DNA of 64,000 bases from Branchiostoma floridae (taxonomy: Eukaryota > Chordata > Leptocardii > Amphioxiformes > Branchiostomatidae), in contig NC_049982.1 in NCBI RefSeq assembly GCF_000003815.2, positions 13,361,822 to 13,425,821 of the forward strand, given 5' to 3'. A program made the translations under genes and the position numbers. The notes under the pieces are model-generated. The model did not search any database and had not been told where the DNA came from. It worked only from the letters and a program-made list of their open reading frames with translations. This document shows positions 1-49,050 of this stretch, piece by piece. Each line of letters begins with the position of its first letter. Positions within the stretch are counted from its first letter, which is position 1.

Positions 1-2384
1 TGTGTTTTAAAGACTGAATGAAACCAAAGTAGAGTATCTTATGATTATACTTGAAATGATGGTATTATTCCATTGATATACGCGTAAGCAATTGTGCTTA
101 ATATACACCTTCTCCTGTTGTTGAACATCGCATCAACACATTTATAATTATAGAATCATCCCTCAGACTTGGGGATTTTGTCGAAAGATATCAAAATTTT
201 GACTGACAGTGGCAATTTGGGACCGGTACCGGTACATACCCAGCACCGGGGCTCAAAACAACATACTATTGAAAAGTCATAGAACTGGTTACAATTTTGA
301 CTGTGGCGTCATGCAGCCATAATTGGATTAGCCCGCGACAAAGCCTCGAGTCTGAAGAATGATTTTCTGATTGTGCCGTATTCTATAGCAGGTGTATATT
401 TAGCGTCAACGCGTGTGCACCTTTGTCTTAATCTAATGCTGCTGTTATTGTTACTGAGTGTGGTTGCGATCTATGTTGTTCACCACCATATAACACTTGG
501 TCTGCTCAGCTGTATGCTCGTTGCTCTGTACAACATAGTTCGCGAACCACTAATTAAGTTGACAAGCAGATTCTACTGGACCATTGCCAGTGATGAGCAG
601 ATATCACACTGGACCAAAACACTATCGACACCTTATACTTATCAAGATGCAAAATTCACCAACGTTTGCCGGTCAGAAAATGTCCTGTCGGCTCCTCTTT
701 TCATATTACAATGAGTAATATCTATACGAAAAAGTGTTATGATTAGTCCCAGGATTTACATCTCTGTATTTTCCCCACAAGGAAATGATTTTACGAATAA
801 CAAATGTTCTGAACTGTTCCCTTTTAGTACATTCCTTTTATCTGAATCAATATCACCGCACATTGAGGTGCCTTTTTGATAACTTAAGATAATGGAACAA
901 GTGGAAGAAATGGCTGTCCAGCTGATTCCACCAGCATTGCGTGGAGAACTGACCATAGCGCCTCGCGATCGCAGTCGTACAGAGAAGGTGTTTGTTGCAC
1001 GAACTGGTGAAAAAGACAACTAGTGAATGTCCAAACTCTATATATTTCTTAGTCCTTGACAACGAAAAAAATTGTTACGTATTCATTTGTCAGGCAAACA
1101 TAATGTTATATCTTACATCTGGTTGATCAAGCGCTAAACTGCCCAGCCTGTGCCGACTTTAGATGTACCCTCCCACGTGATTCGGAGGCTATTTTGTCTC
1201 ACCGCCAGGAACACAGGCCTGGGCATGATGAAGCATATTCGTTTGATCAGTGCGCGAAGTGAAAAGGAAACATCAGTTAATTCAGATCATTTGAAGTGAA
1301 CGGTCGGTGCTGACGGCTCGTGAAGTGGTTCAATCATCTCATTCCGTACCGTCCCCATCCTGTGCGCGTCACAAAACCGGATTCTTGCTGAGAGCGCCTT
1401 AATGTACACTAATGGGACAAAGACCTCTCTCACTACGGCATCACACAGAGGCTGAGGCTGCTTTGGCTTGCTAATTGTACTTTCAAACTTGCCGCCATGA
1501 CTAGGTACATGCATCTGTACATAGCCCAACAAGACTTCGGAGACCCCATATCTCCATGAAATATTCTTGATTATGCAAATTATTTCCGCATCTACATAAT
1601 CTATGCTTGGTTATATACACCTTTAATTAATTTACACAGGTCAACATGTTGACAACCCAATCATTCACTAGTTATAAGAATGATGGCACTATTGCATTTA
1701 TAATACGAACTAGGAACTTATTTGCATATTTGGTATCTGTTAATCTTCCACCTGCCATGGACTACTTATTTTACGTGTATTTGAGTCCTGTAATGGAAAA
1801 CAATGCAAATATAGATTCCCTCATTAATTGTCCAAATCAAAACCTAATTTGTATATTTTGCACTTCATTGTATGCATTTCTGTTTAAGCTAACTGCATAC
1901 TAAATGTTATGGAAATTTGTTGTTTCTTTCTTCAATTACTCCTCAAATCCTGCAGCTCCAGAGTAAGCTGCTGGGGGTCCCAAACCTACATATTTTTTTC
2001 AGAAGCTATCTGCCACCAAAATATCAAGACCATAGCACGTACGCGTCCATTTTTCATGGAGACAATAACCAGGCGGGAGTTAATCTTTAATCTCCTTCTA
2101 GAAATATGATTTATTTGTACATACAAGTCCTTTGATTTAGGAATTCTTAAAATAAAGTTACTAGGATAAACGTATTTGCTTCAAATTAGATGTGCTGAGC
2201 GACATTATCAGATTTGTATCGCTTGTTGAAAGTAGGGTGAATCTTATCTGCTAATGTTTGACAAGTGCCAACACACGTGGGTGAGGGAACTATCCATGTG
2301 ACTGGTTTTCTACAAATAACGAAAGGCTGCTCATACCCAATCTTCCTCTCGCCGTCACTGCAGCTGGAGTATTGCCCGAGCCCA
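1..2384. other. intergenic, no convincing gene
   Basis: AT-rich sequence with no exon that I can support by splice sites plus protein-like reading, apart from the weak 43-codon frame at 892-1023. A small GGTACC-type cluster (ACCGGTACCGGTAC, about 222-236) resembles clusters seen at 13.2, 20.45, 23.4, 24.0 and 42.6 kb. Around 1570 and 1720 there are ATTTGCAT / ATGCAAAT words like those in the decayed repeats at 2.9 and 3.15 kb. Confidence 0.5.
892..1023 (+). CDS. weak candidate: isolated 43-residue open frame
   Basis: An ATG at 892 opens a 43-residue frame that closes with TAG at 1021-1023, with an in-frame TAA just upstream at 880-882. The peptide is hydrophilic and looks protein-like (MEQVEEMAVQLIPPALRG..., then a basic stretch and GEKDN at the end), and its GC content is higher than its surroundings. 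I recognise no family. It could be a single-exon microprotein, an exon fragment, or a relic of a mobile element. No clear acceptor or donor brackets it. Confidence 0.15.
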   Translation: MEQVEEMAVQLIPPALRGELTIAPRDRSRTEKVFVARTGEKDN

Positions 2385-2640
2385 CCACTGTCATGATTAT
2401 CTCCATGAAAAAATGGATAAACTGTGTGTTGGGTGTGTCTGTATGTCTGTCTGTGTGTGTCTGTTTGTCTTTCCGGATTTTTGTTGTCAGCATAAACCAA
2501 GAACCCATGGATGGATTACGATGATATTTGGTATGTGGGAAGACAAAGGTCAATGTTAATTTGGGCTCCCTAATATGTCACCTTGATACTGCAGGAAAAC
2601 TTCCTTCTTTCAGTATCTTTTGATCTGGACATGCTATGGT
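2385..2640 (+). repeat. dispersed repeat with GTCTGT microsatellite, copy 1
   Basis: A TGTCTGT-rich microsatellite (about 2424-2475) is followed by a conserved block reading GGATGGATTACGATGATATT, then TGGTATGTGGG and AAAGGTCAATGTTAATTTGGG. The same order recurs at 37.30-37.74 kb (GTCTGT tract, TGATGGATCCCTATGATATT, TGGTAGGGAG, AAAGGTCAATTTCGAT). A decayed relative lies near 43.2 kb. It is an old interspersed repeat with no coding capacity. Confidence 0.7.
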
Positions 2641-2894
2641 AATGTTTTTTTGTGGCAGATAGCCTATGTTGTAAGGAAAAAGTGGTAATCTTTTGGTCGG
2701 GGCCCCTGGCGGCTTGCTCAGGAACTACATGGGCGTTTTTGTCAAAATCTTACAAGTAGAATAACAGAACAAATGAACGACAGATTTCCATGATATCTAG
2801 TATGCAGGTATCTTAGGCAAAGATGATTTAATTTGCGAATTCAATTACGAAAATCTAGCTATATTCCTAGTGTTTTCCTTTTCCGCTTGTGGCC

Positions 2895-3273
2895 GGTGGA
2901 AGATAAGCAGATACCAATTATGCAAATAAATTCCTAATTTACGTAACCAATGCAAAAGTGCGTACTAAAATGTTATGAAGAATTGTCAACATTGTGACCT
3001 GCGTAAGTTAGTTACATGTGTACTCTCAAAGCAGAGGTTAGCTTGGCTCCGGCTCAGTGTTTTATACGGATTTAGGCGTTTTAGCGGGATTTCTATTTTG
3101 TCCGTTATAGGACATGTAAGATATGTAGTTAACGGCAGGTAACATCAAGAGATACAAATTATACAAATAAGTTCCTGATTTGCATAATCAATGCAATAGT
3201 GTCATAGGTCTTATAACTAGTAAATGAAAAGACTCTCGACATTTTGACCTGAGTAAGTTAGTTAAAGATGTAC
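2895..3273 (+). repeat. two decayed direct repeats, spacing about 250 bp
   Basis: The block at about 2900-3023 (ending GACCTGCGTAAGTTAGTTAC) recurs at about 3150-3273 (ending GACCTGAGTAAGTTAGTTAA). Both contain AATTATGCAAATAA- or ATTTGCATAATCAATG-type words. Similar words appear at 37.87, 43.31, 43.44 and 43.71 kb, so this is the inner part of a dispersed family. Confidence 0.6.
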
Positions 3274-4473
3274 ATAACATAGATTATGTAGATGTTGAGG
3301 TCATTGAGATGAGATATGAAGTCTCCGAAGTCTTGTTTGACAAGCATCCCCACGTACGTTGAACGTTACTCTAGTTTAAGTAGCACATCTCTGGCATTAC
3401 GAATCACTGCTATGGCATTATGAAGGGGGTCTATCGATCCACTGCACCAGTAGGCACACGGGAACTAAAGTCTAAGTGGGTCCATCAATCTGCAGTTAGG
3501 CAAATGTTCGTACATGTAAGAAGGGCAAAAGACTACCTGGCCTTTTAAAAATGCCAAGTAGTCATTTGCGTGACAACAGTATTCTGCTCCAGGGTTCTCT
3601 TTCTTCTGCACATCTGATTCCATGAGTTCCACTGCGTTCCTCTGAAAACGTCATTGATTTCATCGTGATGGCAAACGGCTCTTGTAACAGAAACCGCGTC
3701 CATTGTAGGTATGACTTTGGGTGAAAGCTAACGTTACATGTATTCTCAAGAAAATGTAACGCGCTATAGGTTGTTATTGATGCACGTTGACATACCTTTG
3801 ATCAAAGTCTGATGATATTTTCAGGTGTCTACTTCAAATAGGAGTTGATGGGAGAGATAGTTACCTTCATCCCATTGGTACTTGTTTTCAGGCAGCCAAT
3901 CAGTAGATAATGACTGGGACTGCATCCAAGTCGTGTCCATCCAGGTCACAGGGAAGGCATCTGTAGATCAGGAGTTACCAAAGTGTCAGCAAGGATAACC
4001 TTATTCTTGTTGGGTCAGAAGAACATTATCTTCTGTAACTGAGATTCTACTTTCTATGTTTCACAATCAAGAACATTTTTTCCAGGCCATGTATAAAGGG
4101 GTTTACTTGCATATGTATGTTTCCGCATATCCGTCATATTCGTCGTAGGCCAATTTGCAAGCAGACATGTGGCAGAACTAACCGCCGCCGCCTATCTAGG
4201 ACAGCATGCATCTTCCATAACAAAACAGCTTGGACATATGCATGCTTGATAAACCCGCGAATGTCCTAATTTTACTATCATATCGTACGACGTATGGGGC
4301 CGGGTCCCTAAGAGCTTTGACAACCCACTCTAACATGTTGTACCCTACTGGCATATAGGCAAAGGAATTTTTTTGCAAGGAGTTCAGAATATTCATGTAT
4401 AAGTGTACCAGCACTTCACATTTGAAAGGCCGTGGGTCTGACAGAGTCCATTTAACGAGGGAATATTTTTCGT
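3274..4473. other. intergenic, nothing recognised
   Basis: No exon, RNA gene or clear repeat was recognised. The minus-strand frame of about 90 codons next to the gap (4196-4473) has no recognisable family and no splice support. Confidence 0.5.
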
Positions 4474-9118: not shown

Positions 9119-9352
9119 CACCCGATACTGTTGTCATTAGCGTTTCTTGTCGTTAAAAATGGGAAATCATTAGGCGATAGTATCGGGTATAGATTACGAT
9201 CCAGTGTTCCAGATCGCTATCATTAGCGAAGCTTGTCGGTGCTAGACTAATGGTCACTAAATGAAACGCTGTGACGCGCATTGCGTGATGGGAGGAGAGC
9301 TGACCAGCTGATCAGCATGAACAAAATGGCGGCCCCCTTTTCGTAGCGATAG
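9119..9352 (+). repeat. dispersed repeat, arm A of an inverted pair 17.5 kb apart
   Basis: This block is nearly identical, in reverse complement, to 26818-27048. It opens CACCCGATACTGTTGTCATT and contains a small foldback (CCCGATACT 9121-9129 with AGTATCGGG 9179-9187). It closes with a promoter-like stretch: GCGCATTGCGTGATGGGAGG, then AAAATGGCGGCC. The few differences between the arms suggest recent or gene-converted copies. There is no coding capacity. Confidence 0.85.
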
Positions 9353-9498
9353 CCCGGTATCCAGCCGTATATAGCTCCCGGGTCTCTACTGTTCTCTCCG
9401 TATCAATATTAGCTCCCGAGCACTGTCCCGAGTCTCTTCTGTTCTCTCCACAAATGGCAGACGAGACTTGGGAGCTACAATATGGCTGGATACCAGGC
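9352..9498. mobile_element. foldback MITE, 147 bp
   Basis: The left end GCCCGGTATCCAGCCGTAT is repeated inverted at the right end (rc GCCTGGTATCCAGCCATAT), followed on both sides by AGCTCCC and GTCTC words. Inverted arms of about 35-40 bp surround a core with TCTGTTCTCTCC. A truncated copy is at 13.02-13.10 kb. Confidence 0.75.
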
Positions 9499-24651: not shown

Positions 24652-26817
24652 TTAGTTCAGTTTCTAGAGGTGGCCTACACCAGCCTTGCATTGAGCAACA
24701 CCATTAAAAAAAATATAAAATAGAAAGATGGAAGCAGTTATTGTGTACTTGTAGCACAATAAGTTACACTTTCAAACTGGTACTAGTAGACTTGTGTGGC
24801 ACACTACTGTGCTACATTGCTTTGAACCTGAATTTAACTCAATCGGATTCATATCATAATCTGAGAGGGATGTACATAACCACAGTTACATGTAGCCATT
24901 GTAGGTACCCATTTCCACCTACTGGTAAGTGACTGAAGTGATGTCAAGTGCCTTTCCCAAGAAATAACTTGAAATAACTAGTGAATACATAGGATGCTGC
25001 ATTCTTGAATTCATAAATGTATAAACAATGTCTCCAGAGCGTACACAAGGTCGTTGCCCCATATACACTGCATATTAGAGTCGTTTGTGGTCGTTTGAGG
25101 TTGTTTGTGGTGTTTAGGCAGACACCATATATTTTGGATCTCTAGCGAGACATGTGTAGAGGTCTCTGTGTTACAAGTTACCATCTGTACAAGTTGGAAG
25201 TCAAACATTAAGTTATTTTCATCATCAACAACTAATATGCAGATAGAAAACGAAGGTGTGACATTCAACATTTCATTTTGTTTCATCGTACTTTCTTTTT
25301 TCTCCTTTGGCATGGCTGACTGTTTAATAAATAATTTAGCAAACTATCTCCCCTAAAAGACAGAATAAGACCAATAACTCCTGTCAGTTTTTCCTGCCCA
25401 GTGCAGCAAGAATTTTGTGCCAGTCCCTGATACTAGTACTAAGTACCCACCTAGCCAAGCATAATAGAAAGGGTACTAGTACTCAGATTTCAACTGCTCT
25501 GGCGCTTGATTTTGGTAATGGCGCAGTCACATTCGTCGCAGGTCGTTGTACAAATTTTCAATGCCATAGAATTTTCAATGGAACAGTCAACAACCCATCC
25601 AGAGATCAAGGGATATTAAAATACAATGTAGGTGAGGTGAGGTGAAAACTGTTATGCAGTCTATGATGGAAAAAACAGGATATTAGGATCTAGCAATCAT
25701 TCGAGGCATCCTTTTTGGTACCAAGATAGCAGCATTTTTCACAGCAATCCCTATCTATCCCTGACCTATCATGTGTCAAGACAGGAACATTTTGAGTGCA
25801 CAGTCAGCATCTTGTACTGTTGTTCTTGTTTTTGTTTCATAGAAATTCATAGAGAACTAGGGAACATCAGCTACCGGTGTAATGACTAAGTGGGTACCCA
25901 GTGGACATTGAAACTAGCCCATCGCTTGCTGCCTTGTCCAGATACGAAATGTGTACGTGTAACACACAGTTAGAGCCACTCTCTAATTACAGAAATCAAA
26001 TTTTGTTCCTGTATCATCACAGTAGTGTTTCCCTTTGTATGTTTGTTACAATGCAGGGCTTTGCTGGAGAATCGCAGAATAAATCTTGCTGATTACCAAT
26101 TTGTGTGCACTTTGCTGGTGCAGAACCAACATCCCACCACAAGGCAAAACACTGTGATTATGAAAATAAACGATTTGAAGGTAACTTGTGCATTGTTTGG
26201 GAAATATTTACAAGTTTTACAAGGAGAGTTGCATAGGGTCCCACTGTAGGCGGGCTGAACCGGCAGCTGGTACACAAAAATAGCAGACTTCACTTGTGAT
26301 ATGGAAGCTGGTTAGTTGCTATGGGGAGGATCATGTAACTGAATAAGCCGTATAAAAGGAGGATACTTAGTAGGTGAGGACCTGCCAAGGTAGCCTGCCC
26401 TATCTAGCCAGCCCATATTTTCCTGGAACCCCCTGTAAATCACTACTAGTCATATGCAAATACGGGAAAATATGGGAAAATATCTCGGTATCTGGCTCAC
26501 AGAGACAAGAAATATCTAAGACTTACTTGTTACTTGATAAGGTCTTCTTCTTTGAATGGCCTGCATCAAGGAGTCTACTAAATTGAACTGAATATTGAAG
26601 CATGCAAATTATATATGGACTGTCAATAAACAGTGATTATGCCTTACCGTATATCTGCCCCGATGGAACAAAGGAATATTTTAGCCATGCTCTGAATACC
26701 GCCTTATACTTTACCTTTAGACTAAAGAGCCTTCTTTCCAGGGAAGTCCGTTCCACTGCCGACCGGATAATGCCAGGGATGGACGCCAAGCCAGGCAGGA
26801 TACTCGCCAGCTGCAGG
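24652..26817. other. intergenic or intronic, nothing recognised
   Basis: A possible minus-strand donor (CAACAAGTAAGT, near 26522) with a short open piece was noted but is too weak. No other exon, RNA gene or clear repeat was seen. Confidence 0.4.
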
Positions 26818-27048
26818 CAATCGCTACAAAACAGGCCGCCATTTTGTTTGAAGTGATCAGCTGGTCAGCTCTCCTCCCATCACGCAATGCGCGTCACAGC
26901 GTTTCATTAGTGACCATTAGTCTAGCACCGACAAGCTTCGCTAATGATAGCGATCTGGAACACTGGATCGTAATCTATACCCGATACTATCGCCTAATGA
27001 TTTCCCATTTTTAACGACAAGAAACGCTAATGACAACAGTATCGGGTG
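26818..27048 (-). repeat. dispersed repeat, arm B of the inverted pair
   Basis: Reverse complement of 9119-9352 with few changes. The AAAATGGCGGCC motif lies at its left end here, and the CACCCGATAC terminus at its right end. In both arms the ATGGCGG end faces into the 17.5 kb between them. Confidence 0.85.
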
Positions 27049-32410: not shown

Positions 32411-33397
32411 AGAATTCATGGACTGACATACACGTGCTGTCTGCGTTATTTGACTTATACGAATACGTGTTGTCTATTCTATTAGGTCATATTAAGGAAT
32501 GTAAAAAAATACTTCAATTGACCTAGATTGTTATACGAATGGTCGACATCACAACCAAACGTATTTGAAATCTTTATTGACACGACAAAAGTACAGAGAC
32601 TTTCGTGAGGATTATAACAAGTACTTACAGTGCAACTAAGCAGACGTATATGCATATTTACAGATATGAATAAGTCAACATATTGTTCTAGCATGTCATT
32701 TACATAATTCGAACATTGCCTGCAAATTTCTTGAGTTACAAACAAACTCTTACCAACTCTACGCTTAAACACACGTCTGTGCAGCCGTTTACTTTTCGGG
32801 CCGGAACTCGGTGTAATACATAAATGGGACCTTACAGGTATTGTATATACAAGCTGTATCAGTCTTTCACTCCGTCACTTACAAGAAGATACAACGCAAC
32901 GTTTGCTAGAAGTAATTAGTCAGTGGTATTGTACTGTGATTGTTATTCTTAGACGGTTATTCGTTTGATGACGTGAACTGCAACAGACTGAGATGTACTA
33001 GTAACCAATGTTTAGTGATATGAGCGGAGTTGTGTAGCTGTCTGTCAGGTAAGACAGAATACAAAGACGAGAGATTTCTACGGCAGTTCAGAAGAGCAGA
33101 CATTTGTCTGGTACTGAGACAGATTGTGAAGACAGGAGATTTCTAAGGTAAGAGAGTTCAGTTCAGGAGAGACAATATAGAGCTTCACCAAAGTGAGAGA
33201 GCATTATTATGAAGTCTGTTACAACGTTAAAAGTCTTCCGTGCCCTGTGTGCGGAAATTCTTGTCTCTGCGTCATTTCTTTATCCTTCATTTGCTGATCT
33301 TTGAATTCCAGTCGGCAACTAAAAGAACCTATATATATTTGTTACATGTCTAAGCCTCTATCGTTGGGGATCTCGTCGTAACTTTCTTAACTTTACA
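32411..33397. other. intergenic, nothing recognised
   Basis: No exon, RNA gene or repeat was recognised. Confidence 0.45.
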
Positions 33398-34005
33398 ACA
33401 CACTAACCCTTCATGCTTGTGGCTCTTGCCGTCCTGCCGTTTCCGACAAGAGTACAAGATCACATTTCCTAACCATCCCACTGGCGAATTCCTTCATACA
33501 ACACACTAACCCTTCATGCTTGTGGCTCTTGCCGTCCTGCTGTTTCCGACAAGAGTACAAGATCACATTTCCTAACCATCCCACTGGCGAATTCCTTCAT
33601 ACAACACACTAACCCTTCATGCTTGTGGCTCTTGCCGTCCTGCCGTTTCCGACAAGAGTACAAGATCATATTTCCTAACCATCCCATCCGATCCCTTCAT
33701 ACAACACACTAACCCTTCATGCTTGTGTCTCTTGCCGTCCTGCCGCTTCCGACAAGAGTACAAGATCATATTTCCTAACCATCCCATCCAATCCCTTCAT
33801 ACAACACACTAATCCTTCATGCTTGTGTCTCTTGCCGTCCTGCCGTTTCCGACAAGACCACAAGATCACGTTTCCTAACCATCCAATTCCTTCATACAAC
33901 ACACTAAGCCTTCATGCTTGTGGCTCTTGCCGTCCTGTCGTTTCCGATGAGACCACAAGATCACGTTTCCTAGTCATCTCATAACTTCATACAACACACC
34001 AATCC
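33398..34005. repeat. minisatellite, about 100-bp unit, six copies
   Basis: TTCATGCTTGTG starts at 33410, 33513, 33616, 33716, 33816 and 33911, giving steps of 103, 103, 100, 100 and 95 bp. Units share CTCTTGCCGTCCTGCCGTTT, CCGACAAGAGTACAAGATCA and CATACAACACACTAACCC. The shortening of later units comes from loss of the CACTGGCGAATTC segment. Confidence 0.95.
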
Positions 34006-34291
34006 GTCATATCCAAATGGCGCCAGCGCCACCCTTCCCGTCATACACCGTAAAACAAAATGGCGACGCCCGTAAAAGCCAACGAAAACAGAACAGGTTT
34101 TGCTACCGCAAACCTGTAACTATGGTTCTTAAAGCAGACGCACTTATACCCGCTTTACATACGTTTGGCCTCGGCTTACGAGTCAGGATATTACATGTAC
34201 CACGATTGCTATAGCTGGCAGGCATACCTAAGGACATATACCGAAGACGACGTTGATTGTCTAAGACTTGGTGACTGGTTGACTAATTCAC

Positions 34292-37735: not shown

Positions 37736-38199
37736 TCGTGATTTTTTAGTGGTATATATAGCTATTAGGGCAGAGAGTAAGTGCTGTATAGCGGCGTTTT
37801 TTTTAAACTGGGAACGTGTTGCCGCATCGTCATAATGCTTGGTATGTAGATAAGTCAGTAGCTTGTTTGCATAATATGCAAATAAGCTGAAGTTTATAAA
37901 CCATGATAGGACTCTTTGACCTGTCACATGGGGTGATCACTAAGTCCTCGCTCGGCCTCACCCAGAAATAATAAGCACAGCTCAGATTTCGAACCATAGA
38001 TGTCAAGTATAAAGTCTTATATGACTGTGTACCAAAATTCAAATTAGTGTGGTCATTACTTTGCAGGCGACAGTCACACCCAGTAACATAAGGTAATGCA
38101 GAAGGGGAAAAATCGAGCTGCGACCTGAGGTGTGCGGGTCAACTTGTGCTGCTGGAAGTCAGACACCCACTTCTTTCTGCTTGAAATAGGAAGAAAATC

Positions 38200-38285: not shown

Positions 38286-39356
38286 CTAGAAAGGCCGACA
38301 TTTGCTTGAGAGCAAATACAGCATATTTCAGCCATCTCCCTCATGCAACAATAGGCCTTGAGGTCGTTGACCCCTTTGGCCATTCAAAAATGACCAAAAA
38401 AACCACAAATATATCATTTTAAAGTGGTCCATGCCAAAAAAATATACATGGGTCATTTGAATAAATATCTAGAGCACCCCTTTACCAATTTACGGGTCAT
38501 TAGGTTGTAAATCGAGGGAACAGGAGCCAAAAATGTCAAAATTTTGTCAAAAAATGGCCATAAAATCGCAAAATTCAGCATTTTGTTGTACCGTATGGGA
38601 AAACTTTTATTGAATTTATGTGCACATAATTGAAGGGCACTTTTATACCAAATTTCAGATCATTTGGTTGTAAAACGAGGCTACAGGAGCCAAAAATGTC
38701 CTTTTTTGGTCAAAAAATGGCCAAAAATCGCAAAATTAAGTATTTTGTTGTACCGTATGCCAAAACTGTTATTGAATGTAGGTGCACATAATTGAAGGGC
38801 ACTTTAATACCAAATTTCAGATCATTTGTTTGTAAAACGAGGCTACATGAGCTAAAAATGTCCTTTTTTGGTCAAAAAATCGCAAAATTAAGCATTTTGT
38901 TGTACCGTATGGGAAAACTTTTATTAAATTTATGTGCACATAATTGAAGAGCACTTTTATACCAAATTTCAGATCATTTGGTTGTAAAACGAGGCTACAG
39001 GGGCCAAAAATGTCCTTTTTTGGTCAAAAAATGGCCAAAAATCGCAAAATTAAGCATTTTGTTGTACCGTATGCCAAAACTGTTATTGAATCTAGGTGAG
39101 CATATGATCAAGGCACCTCTGTATCAAATTTCATGTCATTCGGCTGTAATACCAGGGTACAGGAGCCCGAAATATACATAAAAATTGACAATAACCTCAA
39201 TAAAATCATTTTAAAGGCAGATATGAAAAAAATGAAAAAAACACCTGAGGGTATTGGCTTACTCTACCTTTGTGCCAAATTTCAAGTCAATCGGTTAAAA
39301 AATGGCGGAGTTGATTCGATTTGAAGATTTGACAGGAGAAAGAAAGAAAGAAAGAA
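38286..39356 (+). mobile_element. outer element with 162-bp internal tandem units
   Basis: Left end CTAGAAAGGCCGACATTTGC, with the hairpin ATTTGCT-TGAG-AGCAAAT (38300-38317), then ATATTTCAGCCAT (38323-38335). ACCAAATTTCAG-type words recur at 38484, 38647, 38809, 38961, 39123 and 39274, in steps of 151-163 bp. Units share CAAAAATGGCCAAAAATCGC and GGAGCCAAAAATGTCC. A (AAAG)n tail ends at about 39355. The word ATATTTCAGCCAT finds its exact complement only at 40481-40493, beyond the next element. So this element appears to be split by the inner one. Confidence 0.75.
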
Positions 39357-40494
39357 ACACTAGAAAGGCCGACATTTGCTTGGGAGCAAATACAGCATAT
39401 TGCAATCCATCTTCATATGCATGCCAATCCCAAATTTAACAATTTTTGATTGATGTACACCATAGGTGTGAATAGAGCCCTGTGGCTTCACATAACGTAG
39501 GTACCTTCATACCAAATTTCAGACCATTTGGTTTTCATACATAGGTACAGGAGCCAAAACTTAACATTTTTAGTCCGTAAATGGCAAAAAATCCCAAAAT
39601 TCAACAATTTAAAGTATTGTATGCCCAAAATGAAAATGAAGTACTGTGGGCACTTGCCAGACACACTTTCATGCCGAATTTCAGGTCATTAGGTTTTCAT
39701 ACAAGGGTATAGGAGCCAAAAGTATACATTTTTTGTCAAAAATAGCCAAAAAAACCAAAATAACTCATTTTTAAAGGGATCTATAAAGAAAGTGTTGATT
39801 GGACCCTGTGCTCACATGTCCAATGCACCTATGTACCAAATTTCAGGTCATTAGGTTTTCATATAAGGGTAAAGAAGCCAAAAATATACATTTTTTGTCA
39901 AAAATGGCCGAAAACCCCAAAATAACTCATTTTTGAAGTGATCTATGAAGAAAGTGTTGATGGAGCCCTATGCTCATATATCCAATGCACCTATATACCA
40001 AATTTCAGTTCATTTAACCTACATACAAGGGCATAGGAGCCAAAAATAGACATTTTTAGTCAAAAATGGCCAAAACCCTAAAATAACTCATTTTTAAAGT
40101 GATCTATGAAGAAAGCGTTGATGGTTTTCTGTGCTGATATGTCCAATGCACCTCTGTACCGAATTTCAGGTCATTATGGTTTAATACCAGGGCACAGGGG
40201 CCCAAAATATATATATTTTGTCTAAAAATGACCAAAAACCCTAAATATCAAAATTTCTAAGGCCTCTATCAAAAAAGTGAAAAAAACACCTGGGGGTATT
40301 TGCTATCCCTACCTCCATGCCAAATTTCAGCTCATTTGCCCCAAAAGTGAAAAAGTTGAATCGACTTGAAGATTTTGACAGGAGGAGAAGAAACAAAGGA
40401 AAAGCAATATATTGCAATCCCATACTATGTATGGATTGCAATATAATTACGAATACAATATATTTCACCATACCTATGGTATGGCTGAAATATA
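39357..40494 (+). mobile_element. inner element with 162-bp units, plus terminal double hairpin
   Basis: Same left end (CTAGAAAGGCCGACATTTGC, hairpin ATTTGCT-TGGG-AGCAAAT) but followed by ATATTGCAATCCAT (39397-39410). Units begin at 39511, 39673, 39835, 39997, 40158 and 40319 (steps 162, 162, 162, 161, 161). Its end is the hairpin at 40409-40444, whose right arm ATGGATTGCAATAT is the exact complement of 39397-39410. A second hairpin (40459-40494) holds ATGGCTGAAATAT, the partner of the outer element. There is no protein frame. This layout fits non-autonomous Helentron (HINE) or 'pearl'-like elements, by inference. Confidence 0.75.
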
Positions 40495-42226
40495 AAAACA
40501 ATGCCTGGAAAGTAATGACTGCAATCATTTGAAATTCGAAGGATAGTGGTAAAAGACATCATACTATAAAGTTGTGCTTCGAAATCTGAGTTGTGCTTAT
40601 TATTTTTGGGTTAACTTTTGGAGGACTTATTGATCACCCCTCTTATGTACTAGTAACTGAGAAAGAGAGCCAAGTCTATAGATGTCAATTATGGTAATGA
40701 AGTCTTAATTGGATAACTAATGGCAAAATATTGTAGTTCCATAGTGGTAAATGATGGGAATTTCATAATTGCGGCATTACGAAACTAAGTGAAGGTGACC
40801 ATTATTATATAGAAATAATGAAAATCAGGGTCACATGTACATAACTTATGAAGAAACGCGACAATATCCTTCTTTGCTAAGATAAGACGTTTTTGGCGAC
40901 GCCTCAGGCGCTAGCCTAATAGAATAGTGTGCGTCCGTTTGACAAGAATTCACAAAATTTCGTAGGCATCTGTGTAATTTTCCCCCGCATGCTTAGTTGC
41001 ATCCTGCCTGTCTGCAATCTGCATTTTTCCGTTCCCCGAAGGGGATTCCAAGTAGCCGAGTGTAACTGATACTCCAGCCATGCCAGGGCAAAGATTACAT
41101 GTGGAAATCATCAACCGGCCACTAGTTTGCACCACTAGCACACTCACACACATCCTTTATAAATACAGCCAGAATAAAAGGCAATTACTCAATTGCACCA
41201 ACAACAGCAAATGTACAATTCAAGGGTGCTAGAATAATCAGAATCACTCATGTGGAACCGATTCTCGGAGTTCCCCGAAGTATAATTTATTTAAGAGGCC
41301 AGGCCTTGCCTTGCTGAGCTGGACAGTGATTAGCTGCACCACCTGTGGTGCCAACCATGGGCCAGGTCAGATCGTGTTGCTTACTATTTGTGGCACAACA
41401 CTGCGAAGATAAAGTTGTAGCTTTGCGACGTCAAAAATGACCACCGAAATTTACTTCATTTGTTAGCTGGTGATTTTTGTCCATCAGGAAGAGAAGTAAA
41501 CTTCTGACTTTAAAAATATACAATGTTCGTGCTGAACTTTGGAAACTTACATGTCCAGTTTTCTTTTTAAAAAATCTGTAAAACAATAAACTTGAGACCC
41601 GTACAGCAGGATGGGTCCAGCTGGCATAGGAGAATTCAGCAATAATCAGTAAACAAGCTGTCATTGAGCCTCTGTTAAGCCTGGTTCAAGTGCAAAAAAA
41701 AAGATACTACATTTTATGTAGTCTAAAACGTTTCCAAAAAATGTTTCTCGTGTAAAACGTGAAGTATGACCATCTCCTCACTGTGTTTCCTTCAGTTTTT
41801 TGGCACATCGGCTGCCCAGAGCCTGTCGCGGTGTGGATTAACAGACGGTCTCCCGGGTATCAAGGCTGGCTACCTTTCCCCAGTGATTGACAGCTCGTTT
41901 GCATTTATTTCCAGTTCGGGAATCCTCGGAGAAACCTCAACCAACAGAATGCGATGTTTCTCTATCATCAATTCTCTATTTTTGTTTGTGACCAAATTTT
42001 GGGCAAGTTTTGTATGTTTTTAGGCACTAAATCAATGACAACCGAATAGTGGCCTTGTATACCGGAAGTTAATTTTAATGCAATTTTTTTTGTAGATTTT
42101 TTTTTCATTTTTTTTATTCACATATATTTTGAGACTATGAGGCAGAAAGCACAAATTGCTTATATTAAGCCTTCTACTCAAGAAACATACGCATAAAACA
42201 AGAATAGTAAACCACATTACATACAT
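40495..42226. other. intergenic, nothing recognised
   Basis: No exon or RNA gene that I can support. Open frames at 41431-41664 (minus) and 41766-42023 (plus) have no splice or family support. Confidence 0.45.
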
Positions 42227-44782: not shown

Positions 44783-45943
44783 AGAAGGGTCTGAACTTTT
44801 TGAGAAGTAAAGATTATTAGGGCTGACAAAAATGCAAGTTATGGTTTTCTATTCGTACTGTTTCCTCAATTGCGTATCTTTTGTAATCGTTTTATGACGT
44901 TTTCACCGTGCTTCTCATCGTCAGATATGTGTCCTCTCTGGATACGTCAAATTGTAAACCGTCAAGTGAATCATTAGCATGCTGCTTTGCTATGCTGTCT
45001 GATGCCTCATTCTTTTATAGCTGATCGAATAGGGTAGAATGGTCAAAGGGTTTGTTTTCAATTATCATTAAAATGTATATCTTTTACTTCCTTTGCCATA
45101 ATCATGAAAGGAATGACGGTACCAATTGCTAAATAGTTGTGGAAGAACAAGGACTTTTAACCCAAACCAAATTGAAAGCAAAATGAGTAGAAGTTAATGT
45201 CAAACAGCAGGTATGCAACAGGTCATGCGTTCACACTTGCATTTTGGTAATATTTTCTATAATCTTTTCAATTCACTAATTCTACACGGTGAGCATATCT
45301 ACCTTGAGTTAAAATCTCTTCAGCGTAGTATAAAGATAAACAGCAGAAAAGGTGTGCAAATGGATGGAAGACGCATAGCATTCCGTTGATTGTGTCAGCC
45401 TTTAATTGATCGAAAGCCACTGCTCCCGTAAGTGATTTTCATGGCACATTTACTCGTTACGTAATGATGATATTTATTATGTGATCACACATTTTAATGC
45501 ACTTCCTTCTTCTCCTAAAACCGCGTCATCATCCATACCTACTACGACCTACTTTACTATGTTGCTTTTCAAGGATACTGCCTCGATGAGACCTAAAAGG
45601 ACTCGTCCGCCCACCAAGTAACGTCATTCATCATTGCATATTCATGAGGTATTCTGTTCCAACATTCTGCCCTTTTCAGACACGAGTCATCTTGCTTGAG
45701 GCTGCTACAGAGGACCGTGGATAGTTCAGCACAGGCTTGGTGGAATGGTGGAATCGGACATAACACGACTAAACAACGTTGGTAGGCACCAAGTAATACC
45801 GCATCTCAGCGTGGCCTTTTTAAGAACACATGTGATATTTTCATCTGGCGTCTGCTCAATCTACCTGACAATGTCGATGTACTTTATACAGTAGTACAGT
45901 AAAGGGTTCACCTGCTCCCCGTGTACCCGCAATATTGAACAGA
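44783..45943. other. 5' flank of the receptor gene
   Basis: Probably promoter and 5' UTR. A donor-like AACGTTG|GTAGGC (about 45783) and an acceptor-like pyrimidine stretch ending GAACAG (45942), two bases before the ATG, suggest an intron in the 5' UTR. No TATA box was clearly identified. Confidence 0.4.
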
Positions 45944-46425
45944 ATGGAAGTCGCCGACTACCCAGACAGGGGTTTTGAAGACAATACTACACTGAACTAT
46001 GATCCGCTCTTCTTTAATACCAGTAAATTGTATTCATACGACTTCATGGACAACTTCACGAGAATGTACGAGTACGATTATGAGTTCGAAGAGGGATTCA
46101 ACAGCGTCCAGCCACTTCCAGCCCGCGTCATTCTCGGCATCGTCTACTGCCTCATCATGCTGGTGTGCGGCACCGGCAACTCTCTGCTCATCACCGCCGT
46201 CTGCAGGTTCAGAGAGCTCCGATGTGTGGCCAACGTCCTGGTGGCCAACCTGGCTCTGTCAGACCTGCTGGTGGCCGTCTTCTGTCTGCCCTTCCAGCTC
46301 GACTACTACATCGTCAAGAACGAGTCGTGGGGGTACGGAGACTTCATGTGCGCCACGGTCAACTACGTCCGCACCATGTCCCTGTACGTGTCCACCAACG
46401 TGCTGGTGGCTATCGCTATTGACAG
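45944..46425 (+). CDS. PROKR: prokineticin-receptor-like GPCR, coding exon 1
   Basis: The full receptor (exons 45944-46425, 48185-48299, 48430-49050) is 405 residues, a normal length for rhodopsin-family peptide receptors. This exon covers residues 1-160 plus two bases of codon 161. ATG at 45944 sits in a good context (A at -3, G at +4). The N-terminus (1-57) is acidic and tyrosine-rich with N-glycosylation sites at N14, N25 and N37. TM1 carries GTGN (N79, position 1.50), TM2 NLALSD (D107, 2.50), ECL1 N126-E-S and TM3 C136 for the ECL2 disulfide. The stretch VNYVRTMSLYVSTNVLVAIA closely resembles the same region of vertebrate prokineticin receptors. It is expected in the plasma membrane, coupling to Gq/Gi if it behaves like the vertebrate proteins. 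Ligand identity is not shown. Confidence 0.88.
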
Positions 46426-48184
46426 GTAGGACAACCTCATGTTGTTGTTATTGTCATTTCTTATTGTCATCTAGACACATATCCACTTAATCTTATAAAG
46501 TTATATACCTACAATCAGATGAAAAAAATCTTAATAGGAGATCAAACCTCAACAAGAGAAGATGTGTCTGTGCCATCGGAAGGATAGGTTGTCACTGAAT
46601 ATGGTGTTAGATAAGCTTGGACATGATTAAACATAAAACCGATATGACCATGACGTGTACTGGTTTATATGTGAATTTTTACAAGACGACAGGCATGCAC
46701 AGTTACACGAGTGCTCTACCACAGGCACAGTCCACGATCTCAAATTATAACTGATGGGCTCCATAATTTATTCCAGAATTATGCCCTCACTTAACGATCG
46801 TAATCGTAATTTTTGCGATTTCTACACCTCAGAAACGGTTGCCATGGTGCATGTTCGTTGTTATTAATCAACTTACTGTGTCACTTTCTGAAACATCAAT
46901 AAGCGTAGTCGACATACGTCTTTTTCTTTATTTGGGGCGCGGCTTAAATTAACTTCCCTTTCATACGCGGAAGATTGCCGGAGTTGATGATTACCACAGT
47001 GGCTTCATAGTCCTTCAGAGGCCTTGCTCTTTTCCACGAAAGTCTAACCTTCCATTTTAGACGCAATTAGTCTGTTTTTTTTTTTTTCATTCGTTTTAGA
47101 CACATTTTGGACGATTAGCTCATACATGGTACAGCAAAGACGAAAGACCTGCTACTTTTTAGATTATACTATTAGATCATGATACCCCGTGGCCAGGGTT
47201 TGGTGACTCTTGAGCAGAGACAGGTAAAAGAGCTAGGTCCATTGTTACCGGAAACTTTATCAATATAAGGTGACATTCGCATCCATTCACAGCCCCGTAC
47301 TATGTGTTCGTTTTGAGCATATTTTCAAGTAGAACCTAAGGCGCCTATAGCTATCAATTACCCTCATTATTTTTGCCATGTGCAGTAGAAGAATCGTTCT
47401 ACAATTTCATACCTTTGCTTGTTGAAAACATAACACTGAGGAATATTCAAATTTGATCTATGACAGAATAGTCTCATCTTTGATAATCTTTCAATGCAAA
47501 TTCATTATTGTTTTGGGGTTTGAATTTTTCTTTCGGAATGATAATGTACACTATGGAGTAACAATGATGAGTAAACTTTATTGCAATTGACAAAATAATA
47601 ACGCCCGTTAGCTTGAACATAGCACAACGTGTCTTCTCTGCTGTATGATCCATTATCGTTGTTGGGGTTGACTTCTTTGCAGACGGTGGCAAATGAGTTT
47701 TGCACAATATGTTTCAGTTTTTTTATTTATCCAGGAAATACATCGCCTACTGGCGTTTTTCAATACCTCCTGGGGGGCCGGGAGACCCCAACATAAAATA
47801 ACACAAAATCACAACAACTGAATCAAAATTGAAATCACAGGTCAAACTTAAATAACTAAACGTCAGGTGTCGACTGTTTACAATACAAATAACTCAAGAT
47901 GACTTAATATGATAATGGTAATAATAATAACAATAGTAACACATTCAGGCAGTGGATCAACTTAAAATCAAAGTAGGAAAAGTGGAATTTGCATATCAAT
48001 GTGTCGCTGGTCGGGCAGTGTTTGTTACAAAGTTGATTTGCAAATGAAAAATAACAGTCAGAAGAGAACATAAATGTCAGTCTTAGTAGTCATATGTGGG
48101 CTTTGTAATTGTAGTAGAAATGTCATATTTGTGGTATCTCAACGTGTACAACATGATATTTACTCTTGTACCTTCCCCCCACAG
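46426..48184 (+). other. receptor intron 1 (1759 bp)
   Basis: GTAGGA donor and CCCCCCACAG acceptor; phase 2, splitting the Arg codon of the DRY motif. Contains a repeat-like GTTTCAGTTTTTTTATTTAT CCAGGAAATACATC (47713-47748) resembling 9742-9780, followed by a palindrome-like CTCCTGGGGGGCCGGGAG. Confidence 0.85.
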
Positions 48185-48299: not shown

Positions 48300-48429
48300 G
48301 TTAGCATTGATTACAACCCATTGATGCATATTATTCAAATTCTGCCTTTTTGTGTTTTAGTATCGTTATCGCTATGCTCTAGAAGTCCAGTACAATTTCC
48401 AAGCGGTTGTTTCCTTCTGCTTTTTGCAG
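48300..48429 (+). other. receptor intron 2 (130 bp)
   Basis: GTTAGC donor; acceptor TTTCCTTCTGCTTTTTGCAG. Phase 0, just after TM4. At 130 bp it is not a multiple of three, so retention would disrupt the protein. Confidence 0.8.
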
Positions 48430-49050
48430 ACAATGATGAATCATCGGAACAGCACGGTGTTCTGTGGCCAGGCTTGGTCAGTCCGCTCCACCAAGTACTA
48501 CCAGGCCTACTACGTCATGATGTTCATCATCGAGTACCTGGTCCCCATCATCACCATGACGTACTGCCATCTCACCCTGTGGCTCAAGGTCCACCGCCGC
48601 TCCTGCCCGGGCAACACCAACGAGCGTCAGCAGCAGACCCTGGCCAGATCGCGCCGCAAGACGGTCACCCTGGTCATCCTCTCCTCGCTCTTCGTCCTGT
48701 GCTGGGGGCCGTACCAGGGCTACACCTTGGCACGTGACCTGTCTCCCCTCCTCCTGAAGGAGAAGCTCAACACCGCGATCTTCTACGCAGTGGAGGCGCT
48801 CGCCATGGGCAACAACGTCGTCAACACCGTGCTCTACGTGGCCCTCAACGCCAAGATACGTAAGTATATCAAGCTGATGGTGACCGAATCTGTCATCTAC
48901 AACAGCTTGAACGTAAACGTGTCGGGCAGCTCCTCCTTCCGAGCTTGCAACCGTCCGGTTACTCTGCCGGTCATCCTGCCTGCTCCCCGACCGAACACGA
49001 GCATGACACGCCCGGTGGAGATGTACAGAGAGCGAGAAACAACAGTGTAA
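48430..49050 (+). CDS. PROKR: prokineticin-receptor-like GPCR, coding exon 3
   Basis: Encodes residues 200-405. ECL2 has N206-S-T (glycosylation) and FCGQ with C211, matching the FCGQ of vertebrate prokineticin receptors. TM5 has P238 (5.50). The short basic ICL3 ends SRRKTV. TM6 has C290-W-G-P293. ECL3 has ARDLSPLLLKEK, close to the RDFFP...KEK of PROKRs. TM7 ends N331-T-V-L-Y335, with Thr in place of the Pro of NPxxY, as also recalled for PROKRs. The C-tail ends ETTV, a possible class I PDZ ligand. Stop TAA at 49048-49050. Exact orthology needs a tree. A related peptide GPCR clade is the alternative. Confidence 0.88.
   Translation, partial: TMMNHRNSTVFCGQAWSVRSTKYYQAYYVMMFIIEYLVPIITMTYCHLTLWLKVHRRSCPGNTNERQQQTLARSRRKTVTLVILSSLFVLCWGPYQGYTLARDLSPLLLKEKLNTAIFYAVEALAMGNNVVNTVLYVALNAKIRKYIKLMVTESVIYNSLNVNVSGSSSFRACNRPVTLPVILPAPRPNTSMTRPVEMYRERETTV

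Follow-up and report, generated by a model that had tools for sequence, protein, structure and literature searches.

The 64 kb stretch of amphioxus DNA analysed here (the window) harbours between positions 38286 and 40493 two similarly built elements, A and B, of which B lies within A (Table 1). Read on the minus strand, A starts at its 5' end with ATATTTCAGCCATACC-ATA-GGTATGGTGAAATAT, followed by a TTTC microsatellite and then by tandem repeats, behind which come ATGGCTGAAATAT, a palindrome with a 7-bp stem, and GGCCTTTCTAG. The parts of B follow each other in the same order, but B has its own end word (ATIR or subTIR) and a degenerate pyrimidine-rich stretch. The 5' termini of both elements begin with ATATT, carry a hairpin and lie 49 nt apart. 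In A as well as in B, the ATIR is located 0 nt from the 5' end (the flanking T not being counted) and 37 nt from the 3' end, and a palindrome with a perfect 7-bp stem is found 14 nt from the 3' end. The original prediction had described a layout of two elements sharing their "left" end; both elements are present, but the orientation had to be corrected, as they lie on the minus strand and the "left" end is the 3' end.

Table 1. Positions of the outer element A, the inner element B and their parts in the window
Feature	Position	Strand	Basis or remark
Outer element A (HINE-like)	38286..40493	minus	3' end 38286, 5' end 40493; 1123 bp without inner element
A 5' ATIR/subTIR ATATTTCAGCCAT	40481..40493	minus	exact-pair search
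A 5' hairpin: ATIR and complementary IR arm, one base unpaired	40460..40493	minus	folding
A microsatellite (TTTC)n (minus-strand reading)	39337..39358	minus	sequence
A tandem repeats, six motif copies, spacing 151-163 bp	38483..39294	minus	motif scan, unit alignment
A 3' ATIR/subTIR, exact complement of A 5' ATIR	38323..38335	minus	37 nt from 3' end
A 3' palindrome, stem 7 bp, loop 4 nt	38300..38317	minus	sequence and folding
A 3' terminus CTAG, adjoins A-run (minus strand: T-run)	38286..38289	minus	sequence
Inner element B (HINE-like)	39360..40444	minus	1085 bp; 3' end 39360, 5' end 40444
B 5' ATIR/subTIR ATATTGCAATCCAT	40431..40444	minus	exact-pair search
B 5' hairpin: ATIR and complementary IR arm, one extra base	40409..40444	minus	folding
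B degenerate pyrimidine-rich microsatellite-like stretch	40380..40404 (approximate limits)	minus	sequence
B tandem repeats, six motif copies, spacing 161-162 bp	39510..40339	minus	motif scan, unit alignment
B 3' ATIR/subTIR, exact complement of B 5' ATIR	39397..39410	minus	37 nt from 3' end
B 3' palindrome, stem 7 bp, loop 4 nt	39374..39391	minus	sequence and folding
B 3' terminus CTAG	39360..39363	minus	sequence

The end words form exact inverted pairs (100%), with a length of 13 nt in A (ATATTTCAGCCAT at 38323-38335 and ATGGCTGAAATAT at 40481-40493) and of 14 nt in B (ATATTGCAATCCAT at 39397-39410 and ATGGATTGCAATAT at 40431-40444), the latter pair being nested inside the former. Searched without mismatches on both strands, each end word occurs in the 64 kb window only at its two paired sites. 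This is in line with the self-specific, matched end pairs in nested order that had been predicted, and the far-right arms were also rightly placed in hairpins: folding of the 5' hairpins yields -11.3 kcal/mol for A and -12.7 kcal/mol for B, values reached by none of 200 shuffles in either case. An IR arm complementary to the 5' subTIR is present in both elements, with one indel per arm.

Because at least one inverted pair of at least 13 nt was contained in 64 of 500 dinucleotide shuffles of this A/T-rich and repetitive region, the length of the pairs alone is unremarkable. The whole signature, i.e. a 12-nt word, its complement, a hairpin and CTAG within set distances, was scanned on both strands and has three matches in the window. 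Two of them are A and B, while the third (1713-3220, plus strand) was set aside because both its ends fall within a long inverted repeat of 77% identity. The signature was absent from 20 of 20 shuffles in which the base content was kept per 500-bp block, though not the dinucleotides. A chance origin was also considered; position, order and whole signature speak against it. The inverted repeat that gives rise to the third match comprises 1589-1778 and 3112-3294 (77%), and a further related stretch is located at 2890-3022. Shortening the word to 10 nt adds a fourth match (52656-49362, minus strand), which is probably due to chance, the shuffles having covered the 12-nt word only.

As expected for the shared left end, the 3' ends of A and B show a 94% match across 50 nt. 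Of the last 37 bp, 36 are identical, and for the last 60 bp the count is 54 of 61 aligned columns. Alignment of the whole elements gives 788 identical columns out of 1221 (234 of them gapped), and units of A and units of B agree at 63% on average; conservation is thus far stronger at the 3' terminus than in the body. Between A and B the ATIR words change together at the two ends, and the IR arms track the words except for the indel in each. Six motif copies per element, spaced 151-163 bp apart and starting at 38483, 38646, 38808, 38960, 39122 and 39273 in A and at 39510, 39672, 39834, 39996, 40157 and 40318 in B, bear out the six internal units of about 162 bp that had been proposed; of the 13 matches of the motif scan, the one at 39428 (seven mismatches) was out of register and was dropped. 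Comparison of the ten motif-to-motif units, five per element, revealed high similarity within the arrays for A1-A4 (81-92%) and B2-B4 (83-88%). Unit A5 is closest to B5 (77%) and reaches only 56-62% with its own array mates. Unit B1 resembles its own array mates at 62-65% and A1-A4 at 64-69%, which was counted against the best explanation. The simplest reading of these similarities is that a common ancestor would already have had an array, of which the inner units were probably re-amplified in each line and the edge units kept.

On the plus strand A is embedded in an 11-nt A-run, of which six A precede CTAG and five follow the 5' end. In-silico removal of B leaves a junction in A in which GTAATT is joined to TGTTTC (GTAATT-TGTTTCTTTC), and the B-free A aligns to B from the hairpin through the 5' domain, interrupted close to the junction by a gap of 11 bases. 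The site of B lies between TT and T beside the microsatellite of A. Judged from their letters, the junctions of both elements appear to fit the TT or T-rich target reported for Helentrons. The order of the pairs, the anatomy and the junction between TT and T all support the proposed nesting of the inner in the outer element. A itself is flanked by a 139-nt inverted repeat (37930-38068 and 40503-40640, 75%), whose outer tips agree at 19 of 20 positions (GGGGTGATCA...); the pair of elements is therefore enclosed by the two arms of a further element that is foldback- or MITE-like.

We regard A and B as related minus-strand Helentrons of the non-autonomous kind (HINEs; Helitron2 group), B having inserted into A, and assign to this reading a probability of about 0.92. 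The Helentron/HINE relationship had been suggested before, and the anatomy of both elements supports it: the parts of DINE-1-type and Cg_HINE elements, namely subTIRs, IR arm, microsatellite, tandem repeats and 3' palindrome, are all present in order in A and in B, and the junctions appear to fit the T-rich target of such elements. HINE subTIRs measure 12-15 bp, with distances of ∼2-4 nt to the 5' end and ∼38-60 nt to the 3' end (Thomas 2014, PMC4067079); those of A and B are exact, 13 and 14 bp long, and with 0 and 37 nt are located at the edge of the published ranges. The 3' palindrome of both elements (7-bp stem, 14 nt from the end) falls within the 5-10 bp and ∼8-35 nt set for HINEs. The 5' IR is followed by the microsatellite, (TTTC)n in A and degenerate in B, and then by units of 151-163 bp, as in the DINE-1/Cg_HINE layout, and ATIRs within the 8-15 bp of Helitron2 occur together with hairpins at both ends. 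In agreement with the lack of coding capacity of HINEs, start-to-stop frames overlapping the region reach 95 aa at most, no stop-to-stop frame of at least 150 aa is present in the region, and a Rep-motif pattern had no match in the six frames of the 64 kb window. A coding element was ruled out by these frame lengths and by the absence of the Rep motif from the window. The shared 3' end was not found in one scan of viral contigs. Folding of the 3' ends is only weakly beyond chance on the minus strand, where 5 of 200 (A) and 15 of 200 (B) shuffles folded as well, and on the plus strand the corresponding numbers are 26 of 200 and 20 of 200. This weak folding and the one indel per IR arm count against the HINE reading.

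Three other origins of the locus were weighed. Satellite DNA edged by chance hairpins would account for tandem units of 162 bp, and the frequency of 13-nt inverted pairs in the 500 shuffles is compatible with it; the whole signature in 0 of 20 shuffles and a terminus common to both elements (36/37) leave this origin with practically no weight. Non-autonomous elements of the canonical Helitron1 type, which have 5'-TC, CTRR-3' and a hairpin near the 3' end only, are suggested by the 3' CTAG, which fits CTRR and has a palindrome just inside it. Since the 5' end is ATATT instead of TC, a strong 5' hairpin and matched ATIRs are present, and the junctions resemble TT or a T-run, we consider such an assignment very improbable. 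Somewhat less remote, yet still improbable, is a composite product of end bypass or chimeric excision, in which two 5' and two 3' ends were joined by something other than plain nested insertion. The short distance of 49 nt between the 5' ends would agree with this, and FoHelis have been reported in which several 5' termini are combined with a single 3' terminus (PMC5148889). Against a composite stand the alignment of the B-free A to B over the range between hairpin and 5' domain, despite the gap of 11 bases close to the junction, and the junction between TT and T itself; moreover two complete 3' ends are retained, unlike in the FoHeli chimeras, and plain insertion requires no extra event.

Bivalve pearl elements contain a short tandem core of ∼160 bp units between flanks with a microsatellite, a general layout that A and B would share. 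Helitron2 elements with paired ends, defined as ATIRs by Bao and Jurka (Bao and Jurka 2013, PMC3627910), likewise have two hairpins, ATIRs of 8-15 bp, a 5' ATIR 0-2 bp from the end that pairs with downstream bases, and a 3' ATIR just ahead of the 3' hairpin; the latter is placed ∼20-30 bp from the end compared to 37 nt in A and B, and A and B are without a visible protein. HINE/DINE-1 elements share with A and B the 12-15 bp subTIRs, the 3' palindrome, tandem repeats in some copies, and, in DINE-1, the IR arm, and their T-rich or TT target appears to agree with the junctions of A and B (Thomas 2014, PMC4067079). According to the rules given there, families are defined by subTIR identity over 11 bp and subfamilies by more than 80% identity of the last 60 bp. 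A and B are two families by their subTIRs and one subfamily by their 3' end, and the criteria therefore conflict in this case. The Cg_HINEs of Crassostrea gigas (Vojvoda Zeljko 2020, PMC7492417) have the same 5' order of subTIR, IR and microsatellite, tandem repeats, and a 3' subTIR with palindrome, and the junctions of A and B appear to fit their TT target. The comparison covers the layout; the microsatellite is TTTC in A and GTCY, GTCC or GTCK in six Cg_HINEs. Non-autonomous Helitron2-type elements nested in one another are also described for the FoHelis of Fusarium; these are fungal, and the passages on them mention no 162-bp arrays (PMC5148889).

The co-varying end pairs and the nucleosome-scale units had been thought to need description, which did not hold. 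Compensatory ATIR changes in two related Culex elements are reported together with the ATIRs themselves, as is the proposal that 5' and 3' ATIRs pair (Bao and Jurka 2013, PMC3627910), and element-specific changes of subTIR and IR are documented among related Cg_HINEs (PMC7492417). In the 13 largest oyster clusters, arrays form the core of elements with this HINE anatomy, and the consensus monomers measure 138-181 bp with a mean of 165 bp. As 10 of the 13 consensus lengths are within 160-180 bp, a nucleosome-like unit length is not new (PMC7492417). Matched ATIRs, their compensatory changes, the pairing proposal, repeats of ∼165 bp and self-insertion are thus all published (PMC3627910, PMC4067079, PMC7492417, PMC5148889). 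Our literature search found no paper on a Helentron in amphioxus, repeat databases of the Repbase type lying outside its scope. Oysters, mosquitoes and flies are already known to have elements of this type, which makes the finding mostly ordinary; new is only the present pair of A and B. With a nearly identical terminus, different matched words and nesting, the pair puts the published proposal of ATIR pairing as an end signal in testable form; otherwise A and B are one more pair of repeat-bearing HINE-like elements.

For the transposition of A and B, published work on Helentrons and Helitron2 would imply a Rep-helicase-endonuclease that is produced from another genomic location, introduces a nick next to T residues at the 5' end and releases a single strand. 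The 5' ATIR would fold with its own arm into the hairpin, until the 3' ATIR, once single-stranded, pairs with the 5' ATIR and opens the 5' hairpin. This pairing, together with the 3' palindrome, may mark where copying ends, and the released strand would then insert at TT, as B presumably did beside the T-rich microsatellite of A. The inner tandem units would have been amplified separately, once in A and once in B. Computed energies of the matched ATIR duplexes are -13.9 kcal/mol for A and -15.0 kcal/mol for B, compared to -4.6 and -5.7 kcal/mol when the words are swapped; comparison with the own hairpins, which yield -10.5 (A) and -11.9 kcal/mol (B) in the same computation, is not strictly valid. 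We know of no bench test of 5'/3' ATIR pairing. A nearly identical terminus combined with words that match only within an element would fit pairing rather than a fixed word, on the basis of two elements. The matching within each element also fits the proposal that the 5' and 3' ATIRs pair with each other, thereby opening the 5' hairpin and defining where replication stops (PMC3627910).

A different mechanism, which is compatible with the HINE identity of both elements, would do without end pairing: different proteins or protein variants could serve A and B, each reading its own word, and each element does carry its own word at both ends. In some families, identical or nearly identical subTIRs are found although the elements are less than 70% alike elsewhere, which points to recognition of the word by a protein (Thomas 2014, PMC4067079). 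On the other hand, A and B agree at 36 of 37 positions in the remainder of the 3' terminus, which suggests a common enzyme, and the IR arms also follow the words. We consider separate word-reading proteins a serious, if the less probable, explanation. The published data are in part contrary to a pairing code. A majority of perfect subTIRs is reported only for Cg_HINE_9 and Cg_HINE_10_13; in the other Cg_HINEs perfect subTIRs occur in under half of the examined pairs, and one mismatch prevails (PMC7492417). These mismatches count against the pairing step, while decay after insertion could yield the same. The weak folding of the 3' ends relative to shuffles also counts against a pairing code. 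The shared 3' terminus may point to one enzyme for A and B, and under it the ATIR word could be free, so that any word works if both ends carry it. We hold this to be unlikely; if true, the word would be a self-versus-other code that lets a nested element terminate at its own end instead of at the end of the element around it.

Further features were noted in other parts of the window. Positions 9119-9354 and 26816-27048 form an inverted dispersed repeat of 236 bp with 95% identity, perhaps a recent transposon pair. An array with units of 100-103 bp is located at 33394-34010 (5.8 copies with 94% matches in 33394-33972). Two open stretches, 45869-46426 and 48361-49047, match positions 1-83 (E 1.4e-20) and 117-260 (E 3.7e-14) of the 7tm_1 profile for rhodopsin-type receptors and are probably exons of one gene.
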